From assembly GCA_027021615.1 (NCBI GenBank), contig JALUTY010000045.1:1-64000 (forward strand): 64,000 bases of DNA, written 5' to 3'. Each line of letters opens with the position of its first letter. Within the stretch, counting starts at the first letter, position 1. The position numbers were made by a program, and so were the translations under genes. The stretch comes from a bacterium. GTDB lineage: Bacteria > Desulfobacterota > Deferrisomatia > Deferrisomatales > Deferrisomataceae. A model generated the notes under the pieces. That model was given only the letters and a program-made list of their open reading frames with translations, did no database searches and was not told where the DNA came from. This document shows, piece after piece, positions 6,645 to 24,572 of the stretch.

Positions 6645-6977
6645 ATGATCACACGAATCGACGCGCGGGGACGGACGACCGTCCCCCAGGGCGTCCGGGC
6701 CGCGCCGGGGCTCGCGCCTGGCGACTGGATCCTTTGGTCGGTGGATCCCGACGGCACGGCCCGCGTCCGACGGTGTCACGAGGAAGACGAGGCATACCTC
6801 CGGTCCGTCGAGGCCACCCTGTTGGAGTGGGGGGAAGAAGCGGACGACGACGTGTACGGGGACCTACACGGTCGATGGAGTGAGATGAGGCATCAAAAGG
6901 GGGTGGTTAGGCGACCCAAAAACGCCGAGCGCCCGCATTGGTTCGGGGCAACGCGGGCGAGAAGGGGTGCGGCATGA
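6645..6977 (+). CDS. AbrB/PrlF-like antitoxin-type protein
   Basis: 110 aa, ATG with GGAGAG upstream. The N-terminus (MITRIDARGRTTVPQGVRAA) is a SpoVT/AbrB DNA-binding swapped-hairpin sequence. The next section (EATLLEWGEEADDDVYGDL) matches the tail of PrlF-type antitoxins that pair with YhaV. No YhaV follows. The last ~35 residues are unlike the family and basic. The stop overlaps the start of the FRG-domain gene by four bases (ATGA), the arrangement expected of a toxin-antitoxin or otherwise co-translated pair. The function with this new partner is inference. Confidence 0.65.
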   Translation: MITRIDARGRTTVPQGVRAAPGLAPGDWILWSVDPDGTARVRRCHEEDEAYLRSVEATLLEWGEEADDDVYGDLHGRWSEMRHQKGVVRRPKNAERPHWFGATRARRGAA

Positions 6978-7924
6978 CGATCGTTAAGAAACCATCGAAG
7001 GCGGCCAGAATGTCCAGACACGCGAACCTGGCTGAGCAGTTCTTTAAAAAACTAACGCCCGAGAGGAGGAAGCTATGGGGGGTTGAGCAAGCAGAGCAGG
7101 GAAAGCGGGGAACAACAACACTCAGCATCTCGCACCCAGCCGGTCTTGTCGCATTGTCAGGGTTCCTGAAGAGATTGGCCAATAAACGGGCCAATAAACG
7201 GTCCGAGCCCTCCCCGGTTTTTTGTCGGGGAGAAGTGGCCTGGCATGAGACGCTTGTTCCATCAGCCCTGCGTCACGTCAAATCGCAAAACGAATTAGAT
7301 TCAATAATATCGGTAGAGGACGCACTAGAAAAAGAGATAAAAAACCGGCTTGGGCATAGGATGAAGCGCTTCTCGGAAAGGCACTTCTCTGCCATTCTCC
7401 AACATTATGGCGTTCGAACGTCATGGATCGACTTGGTGGACAATCTCTTCGTAGCCGTTTGGTTTGCCCTGCACGAACGCCACACAGACGAGAATTCACA
7501 ATGCTACTACAAACCGTCTTCACGTCAAACAGGTTGGATACATTTTATCCGTCAGAAGATAGACAGCCATCCGAAGCTCCGTATACGAGATCTTCGTTCG
7601 GAATATCATTCTCTAAGCCTTCGACCTCACGCCCAACACGCTATCACAGCGACCCGGTGGACGCGGCAACACTGGCGCCTAGATAATCTCGATTTGTCCC
7701 CGTATGTTGTGGCCTCTGTAAAAATTCCAAATTTGCCCAAACTTTGGAAACTTCAGGGGCACATGTGGTCTCAAGAGTTTTTCTTCCCCACCCCAAAACA
7801 TGATCATACGTATTCAGTTCTATTAAGAAGAGAAACAGCGGACATACTAGACGCGGTTGCCAAAGAATTCGGGCTACCAAAACAACAATTAGGCAAGATT
7901 GACTTATACAAGCACAAGACATAA
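6974..7924 (+). CDS. FRG-domain protein
   Basis: 316 aa. ATG at 6974 overlapping the preceding stop, with GAAGGGG upstream. The FRG domain is named for a conserved Phe-Arg-Gly; here VFCRGEVAWHETLVPSALR (about 82-100) and ILQHYGVRTSWIDL followed by AVWFAL (about 141-166) are the two diagnostic blocks. FRG proteins are often found in defence islands and beside phage genes; their activity is not established. The gene is clearly AT-richer than its neighbours, a sign of transfer. Residues 70-77 (ANKRANKR) come from an exact 12-bp tandem duplication at 7178-7201. Confidence 0.78.
   Translation: MTIVKKPSKAARMSRHANLAEQFFKKLTPERRKLWGVEQAEQGKRGTTTLSISHPAGLVALSGFLKRLANKRANKRSEPSPVFCRGEVAWHETLVPSALRHVKSQNELDSIISVEDALEKEIKNRLGHRMKRFSERHFSAILQHYGVRTSWIDLVDNLFVAVWFALHERHTDENSQCYYKPSSRQTGWIHFIRQKIDSHPKLRIRDLRSEYHSLSLRPHAQHAITATRWTRQHWRLDNLDLSPYVVASVKIPNLPKLWKLQGHMWSQEFFFPTPKHDHTYSVLLRRETADILDAVAKEFGLPKQQLGKIDLYKHKT
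7178..7201 (+). repeat. 12-bp in-frame tandem duplication inside the FRG gene
   Basis: The unit GCCAATAAACGG occurs twice back to back and duplicates four codons without shifting the frame. Confidence 0.9.
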
Positions 7925-8436: not shown

Positions 8437-9606
8437 ATGGGTGACGACACGTCTGTTTTACGGGTACTTTCGATCGACGGCGGGGGAACCAGAGGCATTT
8501 ATGCCGCCGAATACCTCCGGATCTTGATCTCCGACGCCGCGAAGAGGGTCGGAGTCGAACCAGCAACGCTGGACCCAGGGAAAGCCTTTCACCTCATCGT
8601 TGGGACCAGCACGGGGGGCATCGTCGCGTGCGCGCTGGCAATGGGCCGCCCGCTCGATCGAGTTGTCCAGTTATACAGAGAGCACGCTGCTAAAATCTTT
8701 CCCGAGAGGATCCCTTCAATCCCCGCTGACCAGCCGTTCGTGACACTTCGCCATCCTTTGCAATCTTCGCGCAAAATAAAACTCCTGTGGCGATTTACGC
8801 GCAAGCGTAACGAACTCAATCGGCGGGGTCGCGTTGCTCTCCAAAGTGCACTGGAGGCCGAGTTCGGAGATGAGACGTTCCTGGGACTCTGGAAGTCTCG
8901 CCGTATCGCTCTTTGCCTTCCGGCTGTGAACGTGGAGAAGGCCAGCGCTTGGATTTTCAAGACCCCGCATTTGGACGGGTCTCGGGGCCGTGACGACAAC
9001 TGCCGTCTCGTCGACGCTTGTATGGCCACGACGGCGGCCCCAATTTACCGATCTCTGGCCGCCGTACCCTCCGGCGACAGTGAACTCGACACCAACATCT
9101 TCGTTGATGGTGGTCTGTGGGCCAACAACCCGGTTCTTGTAGCCCTCGTCGAAGCTTTGCGCATGCGCGATTCGTGCGATCGCCCCATAGAGGTGTATTC
9201 GATGGGCACCTGCGCCCAGAGGGGCGGAGATTGCCTTTCCCTGGAGGAGGTAGATCAAGGTCCAATCTATTGGCAATTCGGGGGCAAGGCCGCCACGCTC
9301 GGTATGGATGCACAGTCCCACGCCTATGACTACGTGGCGAGGTTTTTGGCCAAGAGCCTCCCCGGCAAGTGCTCGGTCTTTCGTTTCCGAGGCGACACGC
9401 CTCCTGCATCGCTGTTGCCGTACCTCTCTCTCGACGAGGCGAGTCCGGCCGGGCTTTCCGAGCTCGTGAAGCAAGCCCGCCACGACGCGGATTTTACACG
9501 GAGCAAGGCGAACGATCCGAACGAACCCGAAAGTAGATTTCTTCCAAAGTTTCTTTCTGCAATCGCAGAAACCCGAATGGTACCGAAGGCAAAGATGTGC
9601 TCTTAA
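8437..9606 (+). CDS. capV: CapV: patatin-like phospholipase, CBASS effector
   Basis: 389 aa. ATG preceded by AGGAG. CapV is the membrane-degrading effector of type II CBASS; it is activated by 3',3'-cGAMP and hydrolyses phospholipids to kill or arrest the infected cell. Patatin hallmarks are all visible: the oxyanion motif DGGGTRGIY (14-22), the nucleophile elbow GTSTGG with Ser58, and the catalytic Asp224 in VDGGLWANNPV. The length is close to Vibrio CapV (about 360 aa). It is the first gene of a four-gene operon in the same order as in Vibrio cholerae (capV, dncV, cap2, cap3). Confidence 0.95.
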   Translation: MGDDTSVLRVLSIDGGGTRGIYAAEYLRILISDAAKRVGVEPATLDPGKAFHLIVGTSTGGIVACALAMGRPLDRVVQLYREHAAKIFPERIPSIPADQPFVTLRHPLQSSRKIKLLWRFTRKRNELNRRGRVALQSALEAEFGDETFLGLWKSRRIALCLPAVNVEKASAWIFKTPHLDGSRGRDDNCRLVDACMATTAAPIYRSLAAVPSGDSELDTNIFVDGGLWANNPVLVALVEALRMRDSCDRPIEVYSMGTCAQRGGDCLSLEEVDQGPIYWQFGGKAATLGMDAQSHAYDYVARFLAKSLPGKCSVFRFRGDTPPASLLPYLSLDEASPAGLSELVKQARHDADFTRSKANDPNEPESRFLPKFLSAIAETRMVPKAKMCS

Positions 9607-9624
9607 ACGCGGAAGGAGAGGCCG

Positions 9625-10683
9625 ATGTACGACTGCGCGGAACACGTTCTTGCGTACCACAACGAAGAAGTGACCTTGCCCCAGTCCGAACGGACGGCGA
9701 TGCGGCGGCGCCGTGACGCCAACCGGAAGCGCGTGAAAACGGGTCTCAGGAAACAGGACAAACCGCTACCCATCGGGTTTTTGCCTCAAGGCTCCTACGC
9801 CATGAAAACGATGGTCCAAGAACCCGATAACGACTACGACATTGACGACGGTGTCTATTTTCGCAAGGAGAAACTCGTCGGCCCCAATGGGGGTGAGATG
9901 ACGCCGTTGCAGGTCCGCCAGATGGTCCGGGACGCCGTTGACGATGGGTCGTTCAAGACGCCGCCAGAGGTAAAAAAGAATTGTGTCCGCGTTTACTACG
10001 AGGGTGGGTACCACGTCGATATCCCCTGCTACCGGGAGGTCAAGACACAAGGTTTCTGGGGCCGAGAAGAAATCCATTTCGAGTTAGCGAGTTCTTTTTG
10101 GAAAAAGTCGGATCCTGTCGCAGTCACCAAGTGGTTCGACAACGAGAATCAGGCCCAAAGTCCAGACGATACCAATGGACGCCAGTTGCGGCGTGTAGTG
10201 CGGTTACTAAAAAAGTTTGCGAGGAGTCGGACAAGCTGGAAGGGGCGGATCGCCACGGGATTCATGATTACGAAGCTCGTAACAGAATGCTATCAGCCGA
10301 ACGCCTCGCGGGAGGATGCCGCCCTCAGGGCCACAATGATCGCTATCCGGGACCGGTTGCGAGACAGTCTGGAGATCCAGCACCCAGTGATCGAGGGAGA
10401 GTACTTGACCAAAGGCCCGAACGACGCTCGGGCCAAGTTTCTCCTCGACAAGTTAGAGGACGCCGTCAACAAGTTGCAGATCCTCGACAAACCGGATTGT
10501 ACAGAAGAGGAAGCGCTTGATGCTTGGGACTCGGTGTTTGCCACTGATTTCTTTTCGCGACGGGCGACAACCAAAGATAAGGGAAGATCGGAGGGAGAGG
10601 CAGTCTCTGCCGCTGTGCTGATCGGTATGGGGAATCGAGCGCCCCGCGAGACACAAAAGCATGGTGGGGGACGGTACGGCTAG
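9625..10683 (+). CDS. cdnA: CD-NTase (DncV-like cyclic dinucleotide synthase)
   Basis: 352 aa. ATG with AAGGAGAGG upstream, 18 bp after capV. The nucleotidyltransferase signature is present: GS at 56-57 (QGSYAMKTMV), the metal-binding D72-x-D74 in DNDYDIDDGVYF and the third Asp132 in HVDIPCY. This resembles clade A enzymes such as DncV, which make 3',3'-cGAMP. The C-terminus ends KHGGGRYG; a C-terminal Gly is what Cap2 adenylates and conjugates in type II CBASS, so the end of this protein fits its neighbour. It overlaps cap2 by 23 bp. The exact product nucleotide cannot be told from sequence. Confidence 0.94.
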   Translation: MYDCAEHVLAYHNEEVTLPQSERTAMRRRRDANRKRVKTGLRKQDKPLPIGFLPQGSYAMKTMVQEPDNDYDIDDGVYFRKEKLVGPNGGEMTPLQVRQMVRDAVDDGSFKTPPEVKKNCVRVYYEGGYHVDIPCYREVKTQGFWGREEIHFELASSFWKKSDPVAVTKWFDNENQAQSPDDTNGRQLRRVVRLLKKFARSRTSWKGRIATGFMITKLVTECYQPNASREDAALRATMIAIRDRLRDSLEIQHPVIEGEYLTKGPNDARAKFLLDKLEDAVNKLQILDKPDCTEEEALDAWDSVFATDFFSRRATTKDKGRSEGEAVSAAVLIGMGNRAPRETQKHGGGRYG

Positions 10684-12529
10684 ACCAATGGCACCGCGGT
10701 CGCCACTGGCCGCCATTCGTGTGGACGCGGCCGTCGAAGCTGAACGGGTTCTTCGCAAGCTCGCCGGATCAACGAGCGTCAGGCCTCTCAATGCCGGGAG
10801 ATTGCACAAGTACCGCAATATCCGCCCGGCTCACGGCTGGCGATTCGAAGTGTCGTTCGAGGACAGGGTCCGGGAGATGGATCTGATCCTCCCCGACGAC
10901 TTTCCGTTCTCCGCCCCCCGAGTCGCGTTGGTGACGCCTCCTCCGAAGGGGGAGGTTTGGCCGCACGTCGAAAGGAATGGGCTCTTATGCCTGCCAGAAA
11001 CCGACGAAGCACGGTCGAGGGATGTAGAGCGCCTCTTGGAGCATGCGCTTTCGGACGCGGCAAGGCTGATTCGGGACTGCGTGACCGGGAATTATGACCC
11101 CGCGGACCTTCTAGAGGAGTGGGTTTCCTATTGGGCTCAACATTCCACATCGGACGTACCATGCTTCAAATCCATCCTCTCCTTGGAGCCGCCGTCCAGG
11201 CTAGTCCGGGTCTGGTGGGGCAGGAAGTTCGCTCTGTTCGGCGAGACTGACGAGACCGTTCGTGCATGGCTGACGAACCGATTCGGGCCATCTTCGAAAA
11301 GCACAGGGAGGCGGACAGAAGCCGCACTGTTCCTGTGGTTGCCTTCGCCTCTTCTCCCCAGCGAGTACCCCACCACGAATGGCGGGGTCCTCCGGCTGGC
11401 CAGACGCGCAGATCCCGCCGCAGCGAACGTCCTCAAGGAGATTGCTTCCGCACTACCGGAGAGGCTTGGGGTCGTGCTAGGCAGCCGAGCGACGGATGGA
11501 CCTTCAGCGGTCGGCCTGACTTTGCCAAAACCTTCCTGCATGGCAAGGGGTACGAAGAGCTCAGCGTTAGTGGCTATCCCCGGATTTCGCCCGGGGAAAG
11601 TCCCGCCGAGTGTCAAAACCAGCATGTACCTCGGAGATGGCACGAAAGTCGAACGAACAAATGTTCAGCGAGTAGACAGCCGATGGGTCCACGGGAGGGA
11701 CCGTGACAGATCTCACGAACGTCTCCGGTCTGCTCGTATCGCACTGGTCGGATGTGGATCCGTAGGGGGAGTTGTGGCCACCTACTTGGCTCAATCAGGC
11801 GTTGGATCTCTATTGCTGGTCGATCCTGAACCTCTCACACACAGCAATACGAGCAGACATGTCCTGGGGGCTGTAGATGTAGGGAAGAACAAGGCGACGG
11901 CATTGGAAAAGCGACTTCGAAGGGCGTTCCCCCATATTAAGGAAATGCAGGCTCTACCGTCCACTTGGCAGGAAGTTGAGTTTAGTAAACCTGGACTTTT
12001 GCGGAACTGTGATTTGATCATCTCCTCGGTAGGCTCCTGGAGAGTCGAACGCGCTCTGAACGAGGTGCACGTCTCTGACCGTGGACACCCTCCAGTGCTT
12101 TACGGGTGGCTGGAGGAGCACGGGATCGCTGGACATGCAGTTCTTGTTACTGGAAGAGGTGGGTGCTTTCACTGCGGATTCGATGAGACCGGAATGCCAT
12201 TGCTGAGGGTAACGTTTTGGCCCGGTGGTGCGCCTGTCTACCGGGAGCCAGGATGCAGCTCCGCCTTTCAGCCCTATGGCGCTGTGGACGTGGCGCCTGC
12301 TCTCGCGCTCATTACCAGAACCGCGATTGACTATCTCCTAGGCGCCCTTGACTCTTCGATTCACAGGACTTGGATTGGTGACGGGATTGCCCTACAAGAA
12401 GCTGGAGGGGAATGGGATAAGAGGTGGTGCAGCAAAGTAGGAGAACCAGGTCCAGGCTGGTGCCGCACAGAGCAAGAATGGACAATCCGAAGCCAGTGCC
12501 CGGCGTGCATGGGGGTGGCGTTCCGGTGA
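10661..12529 (+). CDS. cap2: Cap2: E1-E2 fusion conjugating enzyme of CBASS
   Basis: 622 aa. The ATG at 10661 overlaps the CD-NTase gene; an ATG at codon 10 is an alternative. Cap2 combines an E2-like N-terminal domain and an E1-like adenylation domain; it attaches the CD-NTase C-terminus to target proteins and primes the synthase. Visible: E2-type cysteine C110 in VERNGLLCLPE; the E1 nucleotide loop VGCGSVGG (363-370) with LVDPEPLTHSN; catalytic-type C532 in YREPGCSSAFQPYG; paired cysteines GCFHC (501-505) and CPAC (613-616), probably zinc ligands. Everything expected for activity is present. Confidence 0.95.
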   Translation: MVGDGTARPMAPRSPLAAIRVDAAVEAERVLRKLAGSTSVRPLNAGRLHKYRNIRPAHGWRFEVSFEDRVREMDLILPDDFPFSAPRVALVTPPPKGEVWPHVERNGLLCLPETDEARSRDVERLLEHALSDAARLIRDCVTGNYDPADLLEEWVSYWAQHSTSDVPCFKSILSLEPPSRLVRVWWGRKFALFGETDETVRAWLTNRFGPSSKSTGRRTEAALFLWLPSPLLPSEYPTTNGGVLRLARRADPAAANVLKEIASALPERLGVVLGSRATDGPSAVGLTLPKPSCMARGTKSSALVAIPGFRPGKVPPSVKTSMYLGDGTKVERTNVQRVDSRWVHGRDRDRSHERLRSARIALVGCGSVGGVVATYLAQSGVGSLLLVDPEPLTHSNTSRHVLGAVDVGKNKATALEKRLRRAFPHIKEMQALPSTWQEVEFSKPGLLRNCDLIISSVGSWRVERALNEVHVSDRGHPPVLYGWLEEHGIAGHAVLVTGRGGCFHCGFDETGMPLLRVTFWPGGAPVYREPGCSSAFQPYGAVDVAPALALITRTAIDYLLGALDSSIHRTWIGDGIALQEAGGEWDKRWCSKVGEPGPGWCRTEQEWTIRSQCPACMGVAFR

Positions 12530-12996
12530 TCCAGTACCGTATCGCAGACTCCGGTCAAGTTCTCACATTCACCGACGAAGTTCTAGCCCATTTCTGGCGA
12601 CATCGGCAAATTGGCTCCCAAAGACGTGAATCCGGGGGGCAGCTATTCGCGCGATTTGATCATCTTCATGTCATAGTCCTCAAAGCAACCGGCCCCAGGC
12701 GCCAAGACCAGCGGGGGCGATTCTTCTTCCATCCAAATCGGGGCTTAGAACAGCTGGAAATTCGCTGCATGTACAAAAAAGGTCTCCATTTTATAGGCGA
12801 CTGGCATACTCATGAGGAAAGAATTCCGCATCCTTCCAGCTTAGATCTGCACAGCATTGATGAATGTTTTCGCAAGTCCTTGCACGACCTAGCCGGATTT
12901 GTATTAGTCATTGTAGGCACAGAGCCCTTCCCGGCCGGGCTACATGTATCATTACACAACAATAAAGGCATGACCATGCTAGACCTTGTCCGATGA
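12526..12996 (+). CDS. cap3: Cap3: JAB/JAMM deconjugating peptidase of CBASS
   Basis: 156 aa from the GTG at 12526, which overlaps the cap2 stop as GTGA and follows a G-rich ribosome site; a longer in-frame ATG at 12424 lies deep inside cap2. Cap3 cleaves the CD-NTase conjugates made by Cap2. The JAMM zinc site is complete: Glu35 in ESGGQLF, His94 and His96 in GDWHTHEE, Ser104 and Asp107 in PHPSSLDLHS. It closes the recognisable CBASS operon. Confidence 0.93.
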   Translation: MIQYRIADSGQVLTFTDEVLAHFWRHRQIGSQRRESGGQLFARFDHLHVIVLKATGPRRQDQRGRFFFHPNRGLEQLEIRCMYKKGLHFIGDWHTHEERIPHPSSLDLHSIDECFRKSLHDLAGFVLVIVGTEPFPAGLHVSLHNNKGMTMLDLVR

Positions 12997-13446: not shown

Positions 13447-13727
13447 AAGGCCGGCTTCGGGGAGAAAGTCAGGATAGGGGGTCGAAAAAGTCAGCGCGGA
13501 TGCTCAATGCACCATATGTTGTGTTTAGAATACGATAGAACACAATATATTGTGGCATGATCGCCGAGAAGGGGAATAACCGACACCAGCGAGGGGGACC
13601 GCCGACCAGGACATACTTTATTTTACGTCCACACCTCTTGTGCAGGGAAAATAAAGTTTGTCCCGGGAAAATAAAGTTTGTCCTGAGAGGCCCTCGGCCG
13701 GATTTCCAGGGAAAATAAAGTTTGTCC
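13374..13727. repeat. Cluster of inverted 18-bp repeats, probable IS-end relic
   Basis: The motif GGACAAACTTTATTTTCC or its complement occurs at 13374-13391, 13428-13440 (partial), 13609-13625 (variant), 13645-13663, 13665-13683 and 13709-13727. The first three are in one orientation and the last three in the other. The copies at 13609 and 13645 form a long hairpin. Serial inverted repeats at two facing ends are typical of IS21-type termini, so this may be an element that lost its transposase genes. No ORF is supported in 13447-13870. Confidence 0.7.
13509..13555. promoter_or_regulatory. Second pair of NrdR-box-like palindromes
   Basis: GCACCATATGTTGTGT at 13509-13524 and ACACAATATATTGTGG at 13540-13555 both fit the NrdR box closely and are again spaced exactly 31 bp. 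The spacer has no resemblance to that of the pair at 8310-8356. No intact gene follows; an ATG at 13557 opens a short frame that runs into the repeat cluster. It could be the stranded operator of a lost gene such as an nrd gene. Confidence 0.55.
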
Positions 13728-13870
13728 TGGTCTCTGCTTCTGATGAGGGAGAGGTTGCGCCGAGGGTCAGTCATAGAGGCCTCAAACTGTACCGACAGCC
13801 TTTCGCTTCTCCTGACTCCAGGGGTCTTTGAGCGCCAAGCCCGGCGACTTCCATGAAGCCCCGGGCGACC

Positions 13871-15748
13871 TCAAGTCTCGCTGCTACCCCCATCCCTAAA
13901 ACTGATTTTTCGAACTGCCCCGAAACCAGGCACTGGGATCTCGTCGCCAAAACGCTGGCACCCGAGGTCCTGCAACTTCGTTAATAGGTCGGCGTCGGCC
14001 CCTCTTTCCTTCTTCCCTCTCTTGGCTTCGAGCAAATACAGGGTCACATCAGCTGAACAAACATGCACCCATATACCATCAAATTCCTTGACGATGTCAT
14101 TGTAGTGCACCTTAAATGCACCCCTACCGATCAAGTAGTATCCACCCTTTTTCCGGTTTGATTTAAAAAACTCCAACACTGCACTCGTCTCATGGCACAA
14201 ATGCCCGCCCCCGAACTTTCCTGCGACCAACGAAGAGAACTCTTGGGATGCCTTCCTGGCCTCCCTCACTCCTTTGCAAAACACCCAAGGCAATATCGCC
14301 TCTCGATAGCGTTCCAACATCTCGGACCTTAGCTCCAGCCCGGGGCATCCCAAACAGGCAGCAGCGAGATAACTTGCCAAGCGGTGCAACATCCTAGAAA
14401 AAGAGACGGGTGCTTTTGTCGCTGTTTGTTCTACCACTTTATACAAAAATTTCTTGTCACCTCCAGAGACCTCTGTCCACGCCTCAGCAACCATAGAGAC
14501 ACCGGCATACAGCTTGCCGATAGATAATGCTTCGTACAGGTTTCCGCGTTCGTTGGGGTGGAGCAGAAATATTTCTATATGCCGTGCGTCCCGTGGCCAT
14601 CTTGAAACATAGATACGATAGCGCTTGCCAATTCTATCACGAAACCTCCCGTACACCGACAGATCGCTTTTCGAACTCATTGGATGTGGAAGGGAGGCTA
14701 TATATGAAAATTCACCGGCCTTTTTGCTATCGGCACCGGCATTCTCGAGCAGTTCCCCGACAATGTGTTCGACAACACTAGACGCTGTATCAGGCGTAGC
14801 CCTCTCAATTCGCTTGCCAAACCGCTTCTTCAGCCTGCTAAGTGTTTCGTAAATATGGACGACATTTGACGGTGTTACATACACTGTTTCGCAAAGGTAT
14901 GCGCTCAGTGCTTCTAGCATCGCGCCACGCGCGTCAAAACGGTCTCTCAGCTTGGCTACAAGCCCAAACTCCTCATGAACTTGTAGCGCAAGAGCTACAG
15001 GGTCTATCAGCAACGACCTGTCAGTAAACTGGATGTCCAAGTAGCCGTATGAAAGTTCCCTCACGAGACCCAAAATATCGAATGCCTCGTTTAATTTTCC
15101 GTGCTTGCGTTCATCTTGTAAAGCCTCTATGTATGACTCCAATGCTGCAATACAGAACGATCTGAGTCCGTCTGGCCACTGCGCTCTCTGTACCCTCCAA
15201 AAGGCCAAACACACGGAGAATTGGTACCAGCGGCCATGCTGAATTACTTCCTGGCAATAGGGTCTACAACTTTCCGGAAAACCATCCAGAAAAGCATCCG
15301 ACAACACTTTGTTCTTCTGCAACTGAAATACAACAAACCTTTCAGCAGCATACGTATCAAATAGGTGTGCGTACTGATACAACAAGAACCATAGCTTAAT
15401 CAACTCACTTTTTGATATTTTTCTCCCCCCGACTTCCACCGAGGAACTTAGCCGAGCGTTTCCGCTACGCATGGACAGGATATCGACCAAATACATAAAG
15501 AGTGATACATACTCGAAACGCGTATGGTGCGCTGACGACAGGCCATGTGCTAACACCCCAAGTTGCCGCATTCGCGACAACCTGTCAAACTCCCCTTCAG
15601 ATTTCAGACAATGGACAAGGTGTTTAAGCATCTCGTCGTAGGCGTGCCATCTCACTCGACCTAAGCCAGGTATCACTGCGTACTCAACATGGGGCTTACT
15701 CTTCGTGACACCAAAGCTGTCGCTCTGACCCACAGCTGGCACTCCCAT
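13871..15748 (-). CDS. Unassigned 625-aa protein with HD-like and PD-(D/E)XK-like features
   Basis: 625 aa, ATG at 15748 with no clear ribosome site. I do not recognise the whole protein. Residues 55-90 (DRLSRMRQLGVLAHGLSSAH, then HTRFEY) resemble the entry of dNTPase/HD-domain proteins, where an 'RLR.IrQLG ... HTRFEH' block precedes the metal site. The expected HD pair is replaced by LLYQYAHLFD (123-131), so metal binding would be impaired. Near the C-terminus FDGIWVH (Asp557), then LLEAKRGK (Glu574, Lys576), fits a PD-(D/E)XK nuclease core. The gene is AT-richer than its surroundings and sits alone between CBASS and a type I restriction operon, so a defence role is likely but inferred. Confidence 0.6.
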   Translation of the reverse strand: MGVPAVGQSDSFGVTKSKPHVEYAVIPGLGRVRWHAYDEMLKHLVHCLKSEGEFDRLSRMRQLGVLAHGLSSAHHTRFEYVSLFMYLVDILSMRSGNARLSSSVEVGGRKISKSELIKLWFLLYQYAHLFDTYAAERFVVFQLQKNKVLSDAFLDGFPESCRPYCQEVIQHGRWYQFSVCLAFWRVQRAQWPDGLRSFCIAALESYIEALQDERKHGKLNEAFDILGLVRELSYGYLDIQFTDRSLLIDPVALALQVHEEFGLVAKLRDRFDARGAMLEALSAYLCETVYVTPSNVVHIYETLSRLKKRFGKRIERATPDTASSVVEHIVGELLENAGADSKKAGEFSYIASLPHPMSSKSDLSVYGRFRDRIGKRYRIYVSRWPRDARHIEIFLLHPNERGNLYEALSIGKLYAGVSMVAEAWTEVSGGDKKFLYKVVEQTATKAPVSFSRMLHRLASYLAAACLGCPGLELRSEMLERYREAILPWVFCKGVREARKASQEFSSLVAGKFGGGHLCHETSAVLEFFKSNRKKGGYYLIGRGAFKVHYNDIVKEFDGIWVHVCSADVTLYLLEAKRGKKERGADADLLTKLQDLGCQRFGDEIPVPGFGAVRKISFRDGGSSET

Positions 15749-15941: not shown

Positions 15942-16670
15942 TCAATACGCCCACTCCTCGTGGGCCAACGGGGCGCGGTTGAGTTCGTCGCGGAGCGAGC
16001 GCCACAGGGGAAGAAAGCGGTCGAGCAGGGCCCGGAAGCGATCGGTATGGCGGCGCTCGATGAGATGAACCATCTCATGGACGAGAACGTACTCGAGGCA
16101 GTTCGGCGGCTTCTTGGCCAGTTCCACGTTCAACCAGATGCGCTTCGCTTCCGGGGTGCAGGAGCCCCAACGGGTCTTCATGCGGCGGATGCGAACGTCG
16201 GCGACCTCCACGCCGATCCGGGGTTCCCACTTGCTCAAAAGTGACGGCAGGCGTTCGCGGAGTTGGTGCCGGTACCAGCGGTAGAGCACGGCTTCCCGCT
16301 CGTCTCTGCCGAGGCCGGGTGGCACGGTGAGCCTAAGGCGCGAGGGGCCGGCGATCTCGACCTTGGGTCTTGTCGGTCGTTCTTCCACGTCGAGCCGGTA
16401 GCGGCGCCCCAGAAAGTAGTGGGTCTCGCCCGACACCATCTCGCGCTCCGATTGACGCTCCTGTTCCTGGAACGCCGCCTGTTGCCGCCGGATCCATGCG
16501 AGTCGGGTCACGACGGCCAAGCGGATAGCTTCGTCGTTCAGGTGAGCGGGGGCCGCCACGCGGACTCGGCCATTGGGGGGGTACACGCCGAGGTGGAGGT
16601 TCTTGATGCTTTTCCTTACGACCTCCACGTCGAGGCCGCTCACGCGCAGGTGTGTGCGGTCAGTACTCAT
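15942..16670 (-). CDS. YgjP-like zinc metallopeptidase, last gene of the hsd operon
   Basis: 242 aa. The family (DUF45/YgjP, M48-related) has a zincin fold; the zinc site HEMVH (198-202) and a further His208 in ERRHTDRF are visible, as is the family signature RMKTRWGSCTPEAKRIWLN. The ATG overlaps the hsdR 3' end by 11 bp, so the two are co-translated. YgjP-type genes frequently accompany type I hsdR genes; their role there is not known. The length matches the family (about 230-250 aa). Confidence 0.9.
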   Translation of the reverse strand: MSTDRTHLRVSGLDVEVVRKSIKNLHLGVYPPNGRVRVAAPAHLNDEAIRLAVVTRLAWIRRQQAAFQEQERQSEREMVSGETHYFLGRRYRLDVEERPTRPKVEIAGPSRLRLTVPPGLGRDEREAVLYRWYRHQLRERLPSLLSKWEPRIGVEVADVRIRRMKTRWGSCTPEAKRIWLNVELAKKPPNCLEYVLVHEMVHLIERRHTDRFRALLDRFLPLWRSLRDELNRAPLAHEEWAY

Positions 16671-19600
16671 GTTGGTTCTTCACGACCTCGAAGACGCGGT
16701 TCACGAGTTCCGGGTTGTCGCCCAGGATGCGCCGAATCGCCTTACGGACGAGCCGCTCTTTGATGGGGTGGCCCCGCCAACCATCTTGCCTTTGTTTGCG
16801 AATTTCCTGGTCGAGCTCAAGTGCCAGCTTTTCGCGTCGCTCCCAGCCCTGGCCCTGCTCGTCCTCCGCCGCTAGGGAGGCGCCGTCCAGGTTGTCGTAC
16901 AACGCCCGGCGCCCGGGCGTGTTGATCGTGTCGGGGTAGGTGGCGCCGGTTTCGGGGTTTTTGATCTTTTTCGTGAGTTCGACGATCTGCTGAAGGTATT
17001 CCTTGTACTCGATGGCCTGTCTGCGGCGCTCCTCGATCAGTTCGTCGAGGAGTTTCGACATCTTCTCGTAGTACTTGGGGTTCACCGGCATCTCGTCGAT
17101 GATGAGCCGCCGGACGTTGTTCTCGATGGTTTCGGCCACGGCCTCCGGGTTGTTGCGAATCCCCTCCGGGAGGCTTTCGATGGCGTCCTCGCCCCTCTGC
17201 ACCACGAGTTCGATCAGAGACAGGTCATCAAAGGCTGAGATCTTCTCGCTCTCCTCGGCCCGGATGTAGGTGTCGAGCAGGTGGCGCATGGCGGGCTCCA
17301 GCATCTTCATGTCCACGTAATCGCCGCTCGCCAGCCGCACCGCGTCTCGCACGGCCTGGTAGTGCGCCACCTCCTCGCGGATCTCCCTGGCCTCCTCGGG
17401 CGAGTATCCGGCTTCGGCCATCTCGTTGGCCAGGTTCGCGTAGGCCCGCACGTACGAGGCAGTCAGCTTGTAAAGTTCCACCCGCTTCGGCTCGTTCCTC
17501 TTGATCTGCTCTGCGTTTCCGCTCTCCTCGGCGCAGAAATACCGGAGGTACGCCGCTGTGTCCCTCGGCGGCTCTACCGGTTCGCACAAAGCCTTCAGGG
17601 CTTCGCGCACCTCCTCCAGCCGATTGCGGGCCTGTTCCAGGCGGTCCTTGAGCAGGCCTTCCACGTCCTCCCGGTCGTACCCGTCGAACGCCTCGCCGGT
17701 GTAGTCCTTGATGGACTTCTCGAGCGACTTGAAGAGGTCCCGGTAGTCGATGATGTACCCGTACTCCTTGTCCTCCCCGTCGAGGCGGTTCACCCGGCAG
17801 ATGGCCTGAAACAGGCCGTGGTCCCGCATCTTCTTGTCGATGTAGAGGTAGGTGGCCGGAGGCGCGTCGAAACCGGTGAGGAGTTTGTCCACCACGATCA
17901 GAAGCTTCATCTGGCCGGGTTCGTTCACGAAGCGCCGCTTCACCTCCTTCTCGAACTGCTCCACCTTGGTCATCGCCGTGTCTTCGGGTTCACCGAAGTG
18001 CTCGGAGAGCATCCTCCGGTACACCTTGTACCGGAGCAGTTTTTCGGTCAGCCCCTCGCCGCTTTCCTCCCCCTTCAGGTCTGCGGGGGAGGGCACGTAC
18101 GAGGTGACGATGGCGCACTTCCCCTTGAGCGGGGTGTTCTCGAGCATCTCGTACACCCGGCAGGCCGCCGTGATGGAATCGCACACCAGAAGGGCGTTGC
18201 CCCGGCCGTCGGCCAAGCGGGGGCGGGTTTCCATGTCGAGCAGAATGTCTCCCACGATCTTGCTCAGGCGATCCCTCGAACTGAGCACCTTCTGCATGGT
18301 GCCCCAGCGCTTCTTCACCTGGGCCTTGGCGAGGTCCGAGAGCCCTCGGGTCTTGGCCTCGAACCACTGGTCCACCTTTTCCGGGGAGGTAAGTTGCTGG
18401 TCGATGTCTCGGGCCTCGTACCGGAGGTCGAGCACCACGCCGTCCCTCACGGCCTCGTCGTACTTGTAGGTATGGATGTACGGCCCGAACACCTCGATGC
18501 TCGTCTTCTTGTCGCGCGATAGGAGCGGGGTCCCCGTGAACCCGATGAACATGGCCCCGGGCAGGAGGGCCTTCATGGCCTGGTGGAGCTTCCCCGACTG
18601 GGTCCGGTGGCACTCGTCCACGAACACGAAGAACTCCCCCTTGGGTCGGAAGTCCGGAGGAAGGTGTTCGCGAATATCCCGGATATACGCCTCCACGTCC
18701 TCGTCGCTCAGTTCTGCCCCGGCCCCGAACTTGTGGATGAGCGAGCACACGAGCCACCGGGTGCCCTCGTTCAGCACCCGCACCAGGTCGGTGCCGCTCC
18801 GGGTCCGGTAGATGTCCTCCTCCACCCCCTTGAACACCTTCTCGATCTGCTCGTCGAGCTCGGCGCGGTCCGTGATGAGGAGCACCCGGCTGTTCGTCAC
18901 GTTCTCGCGGATCCATTTGGCCAGCCACACCATGGTCAGCGACTTTCCGCTCCCCTGGGTGTGCCAGATGATCCCGCCCTCCCGGCGACGCACGCGGCCC
19001 TGGGCCGCCTTGACCCCGAAGTACTGGTTGTGGCGGCACACCTTCTTGATACCGCTATCGAACACGATGAAATCGTGCACGATCTCGAGGAGCCGATCCT
19101 TCCGGCAAAGCTGCGAAAGTTCCCGCAGAAGCACGTTGTTGCCCGCTTGCGGGAGGGCTTCCGACTCCTTCCAGCGCAACCAGTACTTCTCGGGCGTCTC
19201 GATCACGGCGTAGCGGAGCCCTTCGGTCTCGTTGCCGGCCATCACGAGCTGCACGGTGGTGAAAAACGGACGGATGAACTCGGCCTTCTGGTTGTCGAGG
19301 GTCTGGCGAATGCCCTCCGTGACCGAGACGGTGGAGCGCTTGAGTTCCAGCACGCCCAGCGCGATGCCGTTTACGTACAGAACCAGGTCGGGCCGCTTGG
19401 TATGGTGGCCGCGGACCGTGACCTCTTCGGCGATGGCGAACTCGTTGCTCTCAGGATTTTCCCAGTCGATCAGCCAGACCGTTTCGGTCTGCTCGCCCAC
19501 CTCGGCCCGCACCCTCACCCCGTAACGGAGCAGTCCGTATACCGCCCGGTTCGCGTCGTAGAGCCGGGTGTTGCCGCCTAGGGCTGCGGCCTGGTTGAGC

Positions 19601-19794
19601 TGAAAAAGCGCCCGGTCGATCACCTTCTGGCGGTATCCCCGGCGAGTCAGCCATGCCCGCAGCCGTTCCTCCTCGACATTGCGGTTGTCCGGCCGGTCTC
19701 TCCAGTCGCCTAGGTACTCGTACCCCAAGGCGTCTTGAAAGAACGCCACCACCCGCGCCTGGACCTCGCGCTCAGGGTCCCCCACCGTGCTCAT
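16660..19794 (-). CDS. hsdR: Type I restriction enzyme subunit R
   Basis: 1044 aa from the ATG at 19794, two bases after the preceding stop; an in-frame ATG 63 bases upstream would overlap the GIY-YIG gene. HsdR cleaves unmodified DNA after ATP-driven translocation. Visible: the PD-(D/E)XK nuclease core RPDLVLYV then LELKRS (Asp136, Glu150, Lys152), Walker A TQGSGKS (about 280-285), the DECH box FVDECHRTQSG (393-396), GFTGTPLL, and the helicase C-terminal half (LTGFDAP, QAICRVNR). The length is normal for HsdR. All catalytic motifs are intact. Confidence 0.96.
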   Translation of the reverse strand: MSTVGDPEREVQARVVAFFQDALGYEYLGDWRDRPDNRNVEEERLRAWLTRRGYRQKVIDRALFQLNQAAALGGNTRLYDANRAVYGLLRYGVRVRAEVGEQTETVWLIDWENPESNEFAIAEEVTVRGHHTKRPDLVLYVNGIALGVLELKRSTVSVTEGIRQTLDNQKAEFIRPFFTTVQLVMAGNETEGLRYAVIETPEKYWLRWKESEALPQAGNNVLLRELSQLCRKDRLLEIVHDFIVFDSGIKKVCRHNQYFGVKAAQGRVRRREGGIIWHTQGSGKSLTMVWLAKWIRENVTNSRVLLITDRAELDEQIEKVFKGVEEDIYRTRSGTDLVRVLNEGTRWLVCSLIHKFGAGAELSDEDVEAYIRDIREHLPPDFRPKGEFFVFVDECHRTQSGKLHQAMKALLPGAMFIGFTGTPLLSRDKKTSIEVFGPYIHTYKYDEAVRDGVVLDLRYEARDIDQQLTSPEKVDQWFEAKTRGLSDLAKAQVKKRWGTMQKVLSSRDRLSKIVGDILLDMETRPRLADGRGNALLVCDSITAACRVYEMLENTPLKGKCAIVTSYVPSPADLKGEESGEGLTEKLLRYKVYRRMLSEHFGEPEDTAMTKVEQFEKEVKRRFVNEPGQMKLLIVVDKLLTGFDAPPATYLYIDKKMRDHGLFQAICRVNRLDGEDKEYGYIIDYRDLFKSLEKSIKDYTGEAFDGYDREDVEGLLKDRLEQARNRLEEVREALKALCEPVEPPRDTAAYLRYFCAEESGNAEQIKRNEPKRVELYKLTASYVRAYANLANEMAEAGYSPEEAREIREEVAHYQAVRDAVRLASGDYVDMKMLEPAMRHLLDTYIRAEESEKISAFDDLSLIELVVQRGEDAIESLPEGIRNNPEAVAETIENNVRRLIIDEMPVNPKYYEKMSKLLDELIEERRRQAIEYKEYLQQIVELTKKIKNPETGATYPDTINTPGRRALYDNLDGASLAAEDEQGQGWERREKLALELDQEIRKQRQDGWRGHPIKERLVRKAIRRILGDNPELVNRVFEVVKNQHEY

Positions 19795-19796
19795 GC

Positions 19797-20681
19797 CTAC
19801 GTCTCCACTCGGGCTTCCTGGATGGCCTTCAACGTGTTCCCGTTTTCGTCTTTCCAAGCGGTACGGCCGTTCGCGTTGCGACCGAGCACCACGGCCGCGG
19901 CCGTGGACGGCGACGAAAACCGGTAATCCTGGGTGAATAGCAGGCCGTCGTCTCTAGGCTCTAGAACGCCCCGTTCGAGCAGTTGCTTGCGGATGTTCCT
20001 CATGTACGGGTTGAACGCTTTTGACTCCTGGTGGCGGCCCATCGAGCCCTTCAACACCAAGAACCCGTCCGCGGCCTCGTAGCCCCTCGCGTCGGCCCCT
20101 TTCGCGCGAAGGAACAGCTCAACCGACCCGCCGTCGGCGCTTTCTTTGTTCTTTTGCGTCTCGGCCGATGCCGGCTCGAACGCGTCCACGCCGAGCAGAG
20201 GGAAGATCACCAGCATCTCGGCCAGAAACCACTCCGCATCGGCCCGGTCGGCCTCCGACAGGGGAGGGAGCGTCGGCTGAGTGCTGTTCTCCACCTCCCA
20301 CTGGTTGGCCTCTTTGGCCAAACCGATGAGCCGGGCCTCCAGATACCTCGCCAAGGCTTTGTTCAGGCCCTCGTTGGTGCTGCTGAACGCCACGAAACGC
20401 GACCAGAAGTCCTTGTTCACCACGTGTTGCTTGAGGCGGTCGCGCAAAACGTCGGCTTCCCCCACGTAGATCTGGGGTGACCCTTCGTCGCTCTCCCCGG
20501 TGAGCACGTACACGCCCGGGTGCTGCAACTCTTCTCGCTTCAGCGCCCGGTCAATGTGGGCCCGGCTCGCCACCACGGCCCGGCCGGTCCAGTTGGATTT
20601 CTCGACGATGAGGAGTCCTTCCGGCACGCCGTCGGCGAGAAAGATCCGGATCGATGTGGGTCGAGGGGGGATGGTGGTCAT
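19797..20681 (-). CDS. GIY-YIG nuclease-like protein with DUF4357 domain
   Basis: 294 aa. Residues 54-100 (HPGVYVLTGESDEGSPQIYV, then GEADVLRDRLKQH) are a GIY-YIG endonuclease core with the two tyrosine-containing strands and the following Arg. The C-terminus (DYRFSSPSTAAAVVLGRNAN, then GRTAWKD) is the DUF4357 domain commonly fused to it. The ATG overlaps the hsdS stop (ATGA) and the gene ends two bases before hsdR, so it is an integral part of the operon. Related genes are known to ride in type I loci; whether this one acts as an extra nuclease is not established. Confidence 0.88.
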   Translation of the reverse strand: MTTIPPRPTSIRIFLADGVPEGLLIVEKSNWTGRAVVASRAHIDRALKREELQHPGVYVLTGESDEGSPQIYVGEADVLRDRLKQHVVNKDFWSRFVAFSSTNEGLNKALARYLEARLIGLAKEANQWEVENSTQPTLPPLSEADRADAEWFLAEMLVIFPLLGVDAFEPASAETQKNKESADGGSVELFLRAKGADARGYEAADGFLVLKGSMGRHQESKAFNPYMRNIRKQLLERGVLEPRDDGLLFTQDYRFSSPSTAAAVVLGRNANGRTAWKDENGNTLKAIQEARVET

Positions 20682-22042
20682 GCCGCTTCCTCCGGTTGCA
20701 CCAAGCGGATCCGGCCCGTAAGGAGTTCCTGCATCATGCCCCGCTTGATCCGCCTCACCTTATCGCGCTGGGCCTCCAAAGCCTTGATCTCGGCGTCCAT
20801 GTCGGAGAGGACGGCGGCGATGGCGGTCTGCTCTTCGACCGTCGGGAGCGGCATTTCTACAGTTTCAATGTGAGCTCGTTGAGTTGCATATACCTTGGTG
20901 CCGGCGGCGAGTCTCCGAATGTGTTTTCGGAAAGGTGGACAGAACTGTAAATAAGCCTTGAAGCCGTCAGCCAGTACTGATTTGTCAAACCGTGCCGCTA
21001 TAGTGTGGAGGCCAGCGACAATCTCATGCCCTTGTACGCCTTTAACTTCTAGCGCTTTGCCAACACCTTCTATGTCCTCCGACGCGTCAACCAGCACCAG
21101 ATCGCCGTTTTCCAGCCGATCAAGTGATTTTGTCAGGGACCTTTGCAAGGTCGGGAGCGTCCTGGTACTTGGATTTAAGTAAACGTCAGAGGAAGTGTGT
21201 ATGTCCCCATAATGTAAGTATTTTACGCTACCTGCATCAGACAGATCTGCCCTCGAGAGGGTTCCGTTTCGAAGAAACCTTACATGGTTCCCTAACCGCT
21301 TCGTCTCCCAAGGCCCGCGAAAGCCCGGCAGGCGGGTCTCGCCGGTGAGGAGCTGCTGCATCGCGGCCCGCTTGATGGCGCGTTTCTTGGCGATCAGATT
21401 GTCCAACGCCTCCAGCAACCCATCCACATCCGACAACGCCTCGGCGATGGCGCGTTGTTCGGAGAGAGAAGGGAGAACGAAAGGCAACCGAAGTAAGTCA
21501 CGGCTATAGATTGCCGCGACGCTTGTCGTTCCCGTCGCCAAAGCGTGCAGGCGTCGAACCGATGCCTCTGAATTAAGTGCATAGTTGGCGTATTCGTTTG
21601 AAGCGACTTTTTGAGGGTCGAATTCCAATTTCATTAAGTTGGAATTATAATAAGCAACTGGAAGCCCGGAGCGCCATATGGCAACCTTGCCGACCAGTTC
21701 TGGCGTATTTCTGGTATTTAACAAGATATCACCCTGGCGAAGGCGGTGATTATCGTCAGGAACGACCCCAGAAGCTATGAACTCGACCTTCGATAAATCA
21801 AAACGCCCACGACCTACATTTCCCATTTTTATCAATGGGAAATCCGTATCAGTTTCTTGGGTCGGATAGTTGCCGCCGAGTCTGCCTCGAACTAAGACCT
21901 CCATTAGCGGTTTTATATCCCAGTCTTTGGGGATAACTCCAACCTCTGTCTTCTTGTAACCAGGTGGCGCGTCCCGGGGGCCACGCTCCTCGCAGGATCG
22001 CGTTGCGGCGGGCCCATTTCGCTTGGTCACCTCGCTGCCCAT
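20678..22042 (-). CDS. hsdS: Type I restriction enzyme specificity subunit S
   Basis: 454 aa starting at the ATG (22042) that overlaps the hsdM stop as TAATG. HsdS carries two target-recognition domains separated by conserved helices. The first half opens with GYKKTEVGVIPKDWDIKPL, a very typical HsdS beginning, and the spacer-helix repeats SEQRAIAEALSDVDGLLEAL and EEQTAIAAVLSDMDAEIKAL mark the ends of the two halves. The recognition domains are AT-richer than the rest, as is usual for exchangeable specificity domains. Confidence 0.95.
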   Translation of the reverse strand: MGSEVTKRNGPAATRSCEERGPRDAPPGYKKTEVGVIPKDWDIKPLMEVLVRGRLGGNYPTQETDTDFPLIKMGNVGRGRFDLSKVEFIASGVVPDDNHRLRQGDILLNTRNTPELVGKVAIWRSGLPVAYYNSNLMKLEFDPQKVASNEYANYALNSEASVRRLHALATGTTSVAAIYSRDLLRLPFVLPSLSEQRAIAEALSDVDGLLEALDNLIAKKRAIKRAAMQQLLTGETRLPGFRGPWETKRLGNHVRFLRNGTLSRADLSDAGSVKYLHYGDIHTSSDVYLNPSTRTLPTLQRSLTKSLDRLENGDLVLVDASEDIEGVGKALEVKGVQGHEIVAGLHTIAARFDKSVLADGFKAYLQFCPPFRKHIRRLAAGTKVYATQRAHIETVEMPLPTVEEQTAIAAVLSDMDAEIKALEAQRDKVRRIKRGMMQELLTGRIRLVQPEEAA

Positions 22043-24516
22043 TAGAACACCAGTCCCATCTTCTTCAGGTGCGCCTCGACCTTGGCGCCGAGCGCCTCGA
22101 CCTCGCGCTCCAGCTCCGGGAGCGGCCTGGCGTAGCGGTCGTCCAGCTCTTTGAGCCTCCCGACGAGCCGTTGGATCAGGCGCTCCACCTCGTTTTCGAT
22201 CGCCGCTCTCAGGCTGGCAAACCATTTGTCCTCCACGACCAACGTCTTGATTTCGGCCTCGGTGAGCGTTCCGTAGCGGGCCAGCACCTTCTGGCCCAAT
22301 GCCTCTCGGGCCTTCTTTACCGCCTTGTTTGCTACGGCTTCCGCCTCCAGGAGTTCGAGGGCCCGCTGCAGGGCTTGGCGCTCGTCATCGTTCGCGGACT
22401 GTCCCTTGATGGCCTTGAGGCGGGCTTTTACCGTAGAGGCCGAAACCTTGCCGGAGTCGCTTCGCACCTCCTCCAGCAAGTCTTCCCCATCTTCCCCGGC
22501 GGAGGCTTGTTCCTCCAGATATTGCTCCAACTCCCTGGAGGCCGCATCGGCTTGGGCCTCCAGGCGTTCAAGCCGGGCTTTTTCCTGCGCGAAGTACCGC
22601 TCGATCACGAGGTCCGGAGGGATTAGGTCCATTTTGTACTTCTTGGCCGCCCGTCCCTTGCCGACGACCAAATCGGGCGACTCCTTGATGTTTCTCGCCT
22701 TGTCCTCGACGACGGGCCTCGGCTTTGCCGCGTCGGTCCAGCCGTCCGCCGCGATGAGGTACACGTCGTCTTGCATGACCTCCGCCCAGTAGTCCATGAG
22801 TCGCTGGTATATGTCGTAGGGGTCGAGAAGGGGGAGGTCGGCAAACCGCGCCAGCAGGTCTTCGGAGATGTCGCGGATGATTTCCTTGGGGGCGTCGTCG
22901 ATCTTGATTGCCTTGAGACGCGGCGCGTGGGCCTCGCGCCAGGCGTCGAACATCCCGAGCACGCTCTCCCGGAATGCGCGGACCTCCGCGTAGCCGAGCA
23001 GGGTCTCCTTGATGCGCTCCGGGGCCACCCGAATCTCCAGGTAGCCCGGGCGTCCGGTCGCCTGGAATAGGGTCTTCCGGACGGTCGGAAATACGCCCCA
23101 GTAGTCGGCGAGCGCGTCCACGTCGCGCTCGGGGATTCCCCCCCAAAGGTGCGCCCCCAGATCCTCGATGTCTTCGGGTTCGCTCGAGTCGATGTAGCGC
23201 GGGATGTTCAGGTTGTAGTCGTTCCTCGGGTCGGCGATCTCGGCCACGGGCACCATGCGCGAGTAGCCCGGAATTTCGATCTGTTTGGTGAAAACGTCAA
23301 CGATTTTGTGGATATCGCGCTCCCGCAGACGGTTCTTGTTGCCGTCCTTCCGGTAGTCCTTGCTCGCGTCCACCATGAAGATGCCCGAGCGAGTGTGGGC
23401 GTTCTCCTTGTCGATCACGACGATGCAGGCCGGGATGCCGGTGCCGTAAAAAAGGTTCGGCGGCAGTCCGATGATGCCCTTGATGTAGCCACGCTCGACC
23501 AGCTTTCGGCGGATGTCGGCCTCGCGGTAGCCGCGGAACAGCACCCCGTGGGGCAGAATGATGGCCCCCTTGCCGGTGCTCTTCAGCGACGCGATCAGGT
23601 GGAGCAGGAACGCATAGTCTCCGTTTTTCTCGGGGGGAATCCCCATCTCGAACCGGCGGTGGGGGTCGTTCTCCGGGGCGAGGCCGTTTGTCCATGCCTT
23701 GGCAGAGAAGGGCGGATTGGCTACCGCAAAGTCGAAGCGCTTGAGCCCGCGGCCCGTATCATCCTTGAACTGCGGGTTCGACAGCGTGTTGCCCCGCCGG
23801 ATGTCCGCCGCGGGGTGGCCGTGGAGGATCATGTTCATCTTCGCCAGGGCCCAGGTGGCCACGTCCATTTCCTGGCCGTAGATGGCGATGTTCGGCGCGT
23901 TCGACTCGTCGGCGGCCTTGATGAGGAGCGACCCGGACCCACAGGTTGGGTCGTACACCGTGGGCTTTTCGATCTGCGCCGCCCGCTCGATGCCGATCAC
24001 CTTGGCCATGATCCGCGACACCTCGGCCGGGGTGTAGAACTGCCCCTTGCTCTTCCCCGACTCGGTCGCGAAGTGCCGCATCAGGTACTCGTAGGCGTCC
24101 CCCAGCAGGTCGTCGCCCTCGGCCCGGTTGGCCCGAAAGTCGAGCCCCTCGAAGATCGCGATCAGCTTGGACAGGCGGTCCTGCATCTCCTTTCCGCTGC
24201 CCAGCTTGCTCTCGTCGTTGAAATCCGCCTGGTCCACCACGCCCTTGAGATCGTTGGCCTCGGCGAACCGGGCGATGATCTTGTTGATCTTGTCCCCGAT
24301 CTCCTTGTCGCCCTTGAGGCGCGCCATGTCGTGGAAACTGCCGCCTTCGGGGACCTCGATGACGGCGTCCGGATCGCCGGCGTACTTGTCGGTGACGTAC
24401 TTCATGAACAGCAGCGTCAGGACGTAGTCCTTGTACTGCGAGGCATCCATCCCACCCCGCAGCTCGTCGCAACTCTGCCAAAGAGAGCTGTAGAGTTGGG
24501 ACTTCTTGAGAGCCAT
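22042..24516 (-). CDS. hsdM: Type I DNA adenine methyltransferase subunit M
   Basis: 824 aa from the ATG at 24516, which has GGAGGTG at good spacing; the GTG three codons upstream is too close to that site. HsdM methylates adenine with HsdS guiding specificity. The SAM motif DPTCGSGS (189-196) and catalytic NPPF (267-270) are present, preceded by the HsdM N-terminal helical domain. The protein is about 300 residues longer than a standard HsdM: residues ~560-824 form a charged, coiled-coil-rich extension. It is the first gene of the five-gene operon. Confidence 0.95.
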   Translation of the reverse strand: MALKKSQLYSSLWQSCDELRGGMDASQYKDYVLTLLFMKYVTDKYAGDPDAVIEVPEGGSFHDMARLKGDKEIGDKINKIIARFAEANDLKGVVDQADFNDESKLGSGKEMQDRLSKLIAIFEGLDFRANRAEGDDLLGDAYEYLMRHFATESGKSKGQFYTPAEVSRIMAKVIGIERAAQIEKPTVYDPTCGSGSLLIKAADESNAPNIAIYGQEMDVATWALAKMNMILHGHPAADIRRGNTLSNPQFKDDTGRGLKRFDFAVANPPFSAKAWTNGLAPENDPHRRFEMGIPPEKNGDYAFLLHLIASLKSTGKGAIILPHGVLFRGYREADIRRKLVERGYIKGIIGLPPNLFYGTGIPACIVVIDKENAHTRSGIFMVDASKDYRKDGNKNRLRERDIHKIVDVFTKQIEIPGYSRMVPVAEIADPRNDYNLNIPRYIDSSEPEDIEDLGAHLWGGIPERDVDALADYWGVFPTVRKTLFQATGRPGYLEIRVAPERIKETLLGYAEVRAFRESVLGMFDAWREAHAPRLKAIKIDDAPKEIIRDISEDLLARFADLPLLDPYDIYQRLMDYWAEVMQDDVYLIAADGWTDAAKPRPVVEDKARNIKESPDLVVGKGRAAKKYKMDLIPPDLVIERYFAQEKARLERLEAQADAASRELEQYLEEQASAGEDGEDLLEEVRSDSGKVSASTVKARLKAIKGQSANDDERQALQRALELLEAEAVANKAVKKAREALGQKVLARYGTLTEAEIKTLVVEDKWFASLRAAIENEVERLIQRLVGRLKELDDRYARPLPELEREVEALGAKVEAHLKKMGLVF

Positions 24517-24572
24517 CCGTGACACCTCCTCCTAAGCCAGATCGTTGACCAAGCGAAACAACAACGGCCCCG

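Follow-up and report, generated by a model that had tools for sequence, protein, structure and literature searches.

The window (the whole stretch of 64,000 nucleotides that was analysed) contains on its minus strand a gene of 625 codons (13871..15748) that belongs to a rare, previously unnamed protein family. As delimited by the open reading frame and the full-length family alignment (A7), the protein consists of an N-terminal domain related in sequence to dNTPase-type HD phosphohydrolases (pseudo-HD), a helical middle region and a PD-(D/E)XK-like C-terminal domain. The consistent loss of the dNTPase catalytic centre, together with the attachment of a nuclease-like domain, suggests that the fold has been re-used as a sensor. 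We propose, with about an even chance of being right, that the protein is a single-gene antiphage nuclease of defence islands, controlled by a dNTPase-like sensor that has lost its catalytic residues.

The gene, its surroundings and its family

The open reading frame described in the original prediction was found where it had been placed; given the base composition of the gene, a stop-free run of 625 codons has a probability of about 1e-15. Since the relatives begin nearer residue 18, the true start may be as much as about 17 codons further downstream. The gene had also been described as AT-rich, which holds relative to the host: its GC content is 49.5% (64.9% in the window), and its GC3 is 53% versus 81-87% in hsdR, hsdM and the YgjP gene. 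We found no family member in the two same-genus genomes and the one same-family genome searched. From its low GC and its absence from these three genomes, the gene is accessory.

On one side of the gene, profile matches identify a CBASS system (patatin effector, DncV-like CD-NTase, E1/E2 and JAB; 8437..12996, plus strand), and on the other a type I restriction-modification (RM) operon (HsdM, HsdS, DUF4357/PDC-S14 and HsdR) with a YgjP-like metallopeptidase (15942..24525, minus strand). These neighbours are as had been claimed. Their orientation calls for a correction: CBASS and the gene run towards each other, so the gene is not part of the CBASS operon. It lies downstream of the type I RM and YgjP genes and is co-directional with them, 193 bp after YgjP. 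A FRG-domain protein (PADLOC PDC-S15) is encoded at 6938..7924 on the plus strand.

Two further elements lie between the gene and CBASS. A 149-aa open reading frame (12997-13446), which had no match in Pfam or PADLOC, follows the CBASS JAB gene, and its 3' end enters an AT-rich repeat array (13373-13732). The array has five copies of the 16-nt sequence GGACAAACTTTATTTT, in both orientations, and a partial copy at 13427; of the five, four are exact and the fifth has a single mismatch. The chance expectation for such a cluster is none. A 19-nt version of the repeat had no exact match in viral contigs and only weak matches in plasmids. The array is possibly the remnant of a recombination site or of a mobile element. 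Within the RM operon, hsdS (20678-22225) has a GC3 of 56%, versus 81-87% in the other RM genes, which would fit an exchange of the specificity subunit. Beyond the operon (24859-26392), an HTH and metallopeptidase gene matches the PADLOC RmrA and capP/capH profiles and is adjoined by a gene matching PDC-S70; judging by these matches, both are further candidate defence genes.

Searches of Pfam, NCBIfam, PADLOC and PDB sequences with the window protein gave no significant match, the best library match being HamA (DUF1837; E 0.02, residues 540-590). Searched directly against phages and against viral and genome contigs, the protein found nothing, and tblastn against 72,556 plasmids yielded one weak match (E 6e-3), a 622-aa protein of a Peribacillus plasmid that is colinear with the window protein. 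From the block IKxWFLLxxxxHxxxxxxxE, common to these two proteins, we built a DNA signature and scanned 85,000 genomes with it. Five of the 43 matches were full-length relatives, all from Bacteroidota (Nonlabens, Pontibacter, Flavobacterium and two nearly identical Rufibacter copies), which match the Peribacillus protein in tblastn at E 3e-83 to 2e-69. The other 38, and all eight matches in viral contigs, were discarded as chance. Profile searches then added one member in genome G576 (E 2e-168), a divergent one in genome G522 (E 2e-28) and, in genome G1036, a C-terminal fragment only; a Priestia plasmid carries a decayed C-terminal copy.

Counting both Rufibacter copies, there are thus eight full-length relatives, one on a Bacillota plasmid and the rest in Bacteroidota. 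They are 17-20% identical to the window protein, and all but one were aligned with it in A7. The distribution of the family is very sparse and patchy. The only copy among 395 genomes of the window's phylum is the window's own, and full-length members were found in none of 379 Bacilli and none of 299 Pseudomonadota genomes; about 1% or less of the Bacteroidota sampled carry the family, and 50,697 phage records gave no match.

The N-terminal pseudo-HD domain

The original prediction had likened the N-terminus to dNTPase-type HD proteins, and profile comparisons bear out the resemblance. The family profile matched 87 of the 379 Bacilli genomes, in the N-terminal part of open reading frames of 430-500 aa. 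We read 22 of the profile matches (20 fetched from Bacilli and two from Bacteroidota), and all had an intact HD domain with HxRF and HD[ILV]GH; the Bacilli matches were therefore rejected as relatives, all 20 fetched being ordinary HD dNTPases. An alignment of these intact HD proteins retrieves 2o6i and SAMHD1 from the PDB, and the top PDB match of the family profile is likewise the Enterococcus faecalis HD protein 2o6i (E 0.037). Aligned by hhalign with the HD proteins, the family gave a probability of 89% and an E-value of 2.3e-6 over window residues 42-156 (15281..15625, minus strand), with LLYQYAH falling on LLHDIGH. Three lines of sequence evidence (the matches of the family profile to intact HD dNTPases, the 2o6i match and the hhalign result) thus show that dNTPase-type HD phosphohydrolases are the ancestors of the N-terminal domain.

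The joint alignment traces the fate of the catalytic motifs. Residues 75-80 of the window protein (HTRFEY; 15509..15526, minus strand) are the counterpart of the dNTPase HxRFxH motif, and residues 122-128 (LLYQYAH; 15365..15385, minus strand) that of LLHDIGH. The former motif has become HxR[F/Y/W]xY in 8/8 aligned members (the window protein and seven relatives); H75, R77 and Y80 are invariant in the family, and Tyr80 occupies the position of a metal-ligand His. In place of LLHD[ILV]GH, the window protein has LLYQYAH and the seven aligned relatives have L[L/F]SN[F/L/M]G[H/Y]. The HD pair, correctly reported as missing in the original prediction, is thus replaced by YQ in the window protein and by SN in the seven relatives, while the final His of the motif is Tyr only in the G522 member. 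By this alignment, all eight members have lost both the HD pair and one more metal-ligand His. The lost residues correspond to three of the four SAMHD1 metal ligands (H167, H206 and D207); the counterparts of SAMHD1 R164 and H210 are kept in most members. For the fourth HD metal ligand, the equivalent of SAMHD1 D311, no reliable placement was obtained in the family. With these metal ligands lost, dNTP hydrolysis by the usual mechanism is unlikely; ligand binding by the pseudo-HD domain is possible.

The C-terminal nuclease-like domain

The C-terminal domain spans residues about 500-618 (13895..14251, minus strand), as delimited by alignment A9 and by an AlphaFold2 model of its Pontibacter counterpart. 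Here, a PD-(D/E)XK nuclease end had been predicted from Asp557, Glu574 and Lys576. These residues form a real and family-invariant set: Asp557 (14078..14080, minus strand), a candidate metal ligand, and the E-x-K motif Glu574-Ala-Lys576 (14021..14029, minus strand) recur as D-x16-E-x-K in 10/10 diverse C-terminal sequences, at a constant distance of 17 residues from Asp to Glu. Across these ten sequences, the only other invariant residues are one Leu and one Gly, so that no charged residue apart from D, E and K is invariant.

A full-length AlphaFold2 model was discarded (pLDDT 38). The 193-aa Pontibacter domain, modelled together with five relatives, reached a pLDDT of 80.4 and a pTM of 0.78. 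The model has a helix (82-96), strands at 102-106, 110-114, 123-134 (which holds the Asp) and 138-146 (which ends in ExK), a second helix (152-167) and final strands (175-192). This predicted order of helix, strand, strand, strand with D, strand with ExK, helix and strand is that expected of PD-(D/E)XK. The fold comparison did not reinforce it, however: Foldseek of the model against the PDB and BFVD gave no match at E<=0.001, only insignificant and unrelated ones. In hhalign comparisons of the C-terminal profile with single sequences of HsdR, YhcG, PDDEXK_4, DUF6602 and Mrr, none scored better than decoys, and no Pfam family was above the cut-off for any member. Weak library matches, each by one member, were to PDC-S21 (0.0017), HamA (0.0043) and a type II restriction endonuclease (0.017). 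The nuclease end of the original prediction therefore stands in its residues and predicted strand order, and lacks a significant structural match; since Foldseek returned none, we call the domain only a probable metal-dependent nuclease of the PD-(D/E)XK type.

Genomic neighbourhoods, proposed function and comparison with known systems

Like the window gene, flanked by CBASS and type I RM, most relatives lie near recognised defence genes. The Peribacillus gene, on a plasmid and a few genes from an integrase, is beside a PtuA-like ATPase and an HNH protein (PDC-M01A/B). The G522 member is near a type ISP RM system, YhcG and an MNT/HepT-like pair, 3' of the type ISP RM and YhcG genes on the same strand. 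A PDDEXK_4/PDC-S26 gene is beside the Rufibacter gene, a Fic gene beside the G576 member, and a type IIG RM gene about 5.7 kb from the Pontibacter gene. We found no recognised defence gene near the Flavobacterium copy, which is beside tig-clpP-clpX, or near the Nonlabens copy, which is among hypotheticals. The claim of a defence protein thus fits the surroundings of most members and not those of two, and proximity to defence genes at most loci is an association only. No partner gene recurs across the neighbourhoods of the relatives, which favours a single-gene system.

Two of the loci have further features. In G522 (L077:1323-7661), the YhcG/DUF1016 gene directly follows the type ISP restriction gene, and between it and the family member is an 84-aa open reading frame that may be a restriction-gene remnant. 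On the Priestia megaterium plasmid pBMG4 (L003:590-7516), the decayed copy adjoins PbeA-like and PbeC-like genes and a gene for a DUF6602 protein that matches NucC nuclease profiles.

dNTPases are antiviral effectors in both animals and bacteria. We infer for this family a mechanism of sensing, gating and phage defence in which the dead dNTPase domain would still bind nucleotide or nucleic acid; residual binding is proposed because the family keeps HxR and, in most members, the GH histidine. Together with the helical middle region, the domain would act as a sensor and oligomerisation platform that keeps the nuclease silent. A phage-induced change (in the dNTP pool, in modified nucleotides or in DNA ends) would free the nuclease to cut DNA, and the cutting would clear phage DNA or kill the infected cell. 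More tentatively, the family may stand for a new class of immune nucleases in which a dead dNTPase senses the nucleotide pool or phage-modified nucleotides and gates a fused PD-(D/E)XK nuclease within one polypeptide. If true, one protein would link nucleotide or DNA sensing to DNA destruction, and the family would be an unlisted addition to catalogues of defence genes.

Other readings of the same evidence have to be weighed. If the dead HD domain recognised unusual (modified) DNA or nucleotides of phages, and the nuclease cut that DNA directly, with no signalling step, the protein would be a type IV-like restriction enzyme. Its single-gene layout and nuclease-like end would suit such an enzyme, and so would the restriction systems that often adjoin the family (type I in the window, type ISP in G522 and type IIG near the Pontibacter gene). 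However, neither an NTPase/translocase nor a known modified-base reader domain was detected, and the N-terminus derives from a dNTP-binding enzyme rather than from a base reader; we regard this reading as unlikely. The position of the gene directly downstream of co-directional RM genes, both in the window (the 193-bp gap to YgjP) and in G522, could instead mean that it serves the adjoining restriction operon as an accessory and does not act alone. Yet there is no directly adjacent RM gene in Peribacillus, Pontibacter, Flavobacterium, Rufibacter, Nonlabens or G576, and the GC3 of the gene is far from that of the window RM genes except hsdS, which makes an accessory role in the operon very unlikely.

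We consider it just as improbable that the gene serves general DNA maintenance or a mobile element and is present in islands only incidentally. The Flavobacterium and Nonlabens loci would fit such a gene, as would the integrase close to the Peribacillus copy, but the sparse and patchy distribution described above, the defence genes adjoining most copies and the lack of any match among the phage records argue against it. Finally, the C-terminal domain may not be a nuclease at all, with D, E and K serving another role such as binding. The Foldseek and Pfam results would agree with this; against it are the exact D-x16-E-x-K spacing on neighbouring predicted strands, as the only invariant charged set in ten sequences, and the weak matches to HamA and a type II restriction endonuclease, and we judge it quite unlikely. 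Our preferred reading remains the nuclease gated by a dead dNTPase-like sensor.

Among known proteins, those of the dNTPase-type HD group (2o6i, SAMHD1 and bacterial dGTPases) are homologous to the family along residues 42-156, where most members keep HxR, LL...GH and E. Unlike them, the family has a fused nuclease-like domain, and its HD pair and the ligand His of RFxH are replaced (8/8 aligned); it thus has the homology of a catalytic HD dNTPase but not the intact His-Asp pair and ligand His. Clover also employs a HD dNTPase-related protein in defence, regulated in its case by the nucleotide pool; it pairs the dNTPase CloA, which strictly conserves the HD motif and a HE dyad, with the NTase CloB (PMC12265719). 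The family differs from Clover in that it has lost HD and has no conserved adjacent NTase. The HamA protein of Hachiman carries a conserved nuclease motif, D-E(X)K, loses defence when mutated at it (E138A/K140A), and works with the HamB helicase (PMC12278908). The C-terminus of the window protein resembles HamA (DUF1837) in a weak, non-significant match over the D-E-K stretch. Hachiman was rejected: the match is below threshold (E 0.004-0.02, one member only), Pfam DUF1837 is unmatched, and no HamB Ski2-like helicase lies beside the window gene or recurs in the relatives. A CBASS effector was rejected as well, the gene being convergent to CBASS and no CD-NTase being found in the neighbourhoods of relatives examined.

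The original prediction recognised no described system with this layout, and we too found no description of the pseudo-HD/nuclease combination in the family libraries or in the mostly open-access literature searched. Sensor-nuclease effectors of antiviral signalling are known, such as Can1/Card1 and NucC. By analogy, the proposed protein would resemble them in having a PD-(D/E)XK effector gated by a part that binds a ligand; unlike them, it would have a dead dNTPase as its putative ligand domain in place of CARF or the NucC trimer, and it has no synthetase partner. The family is new, as is its combination of domains, whereas immune nucleases gated by a sensor are already known as a general principle.
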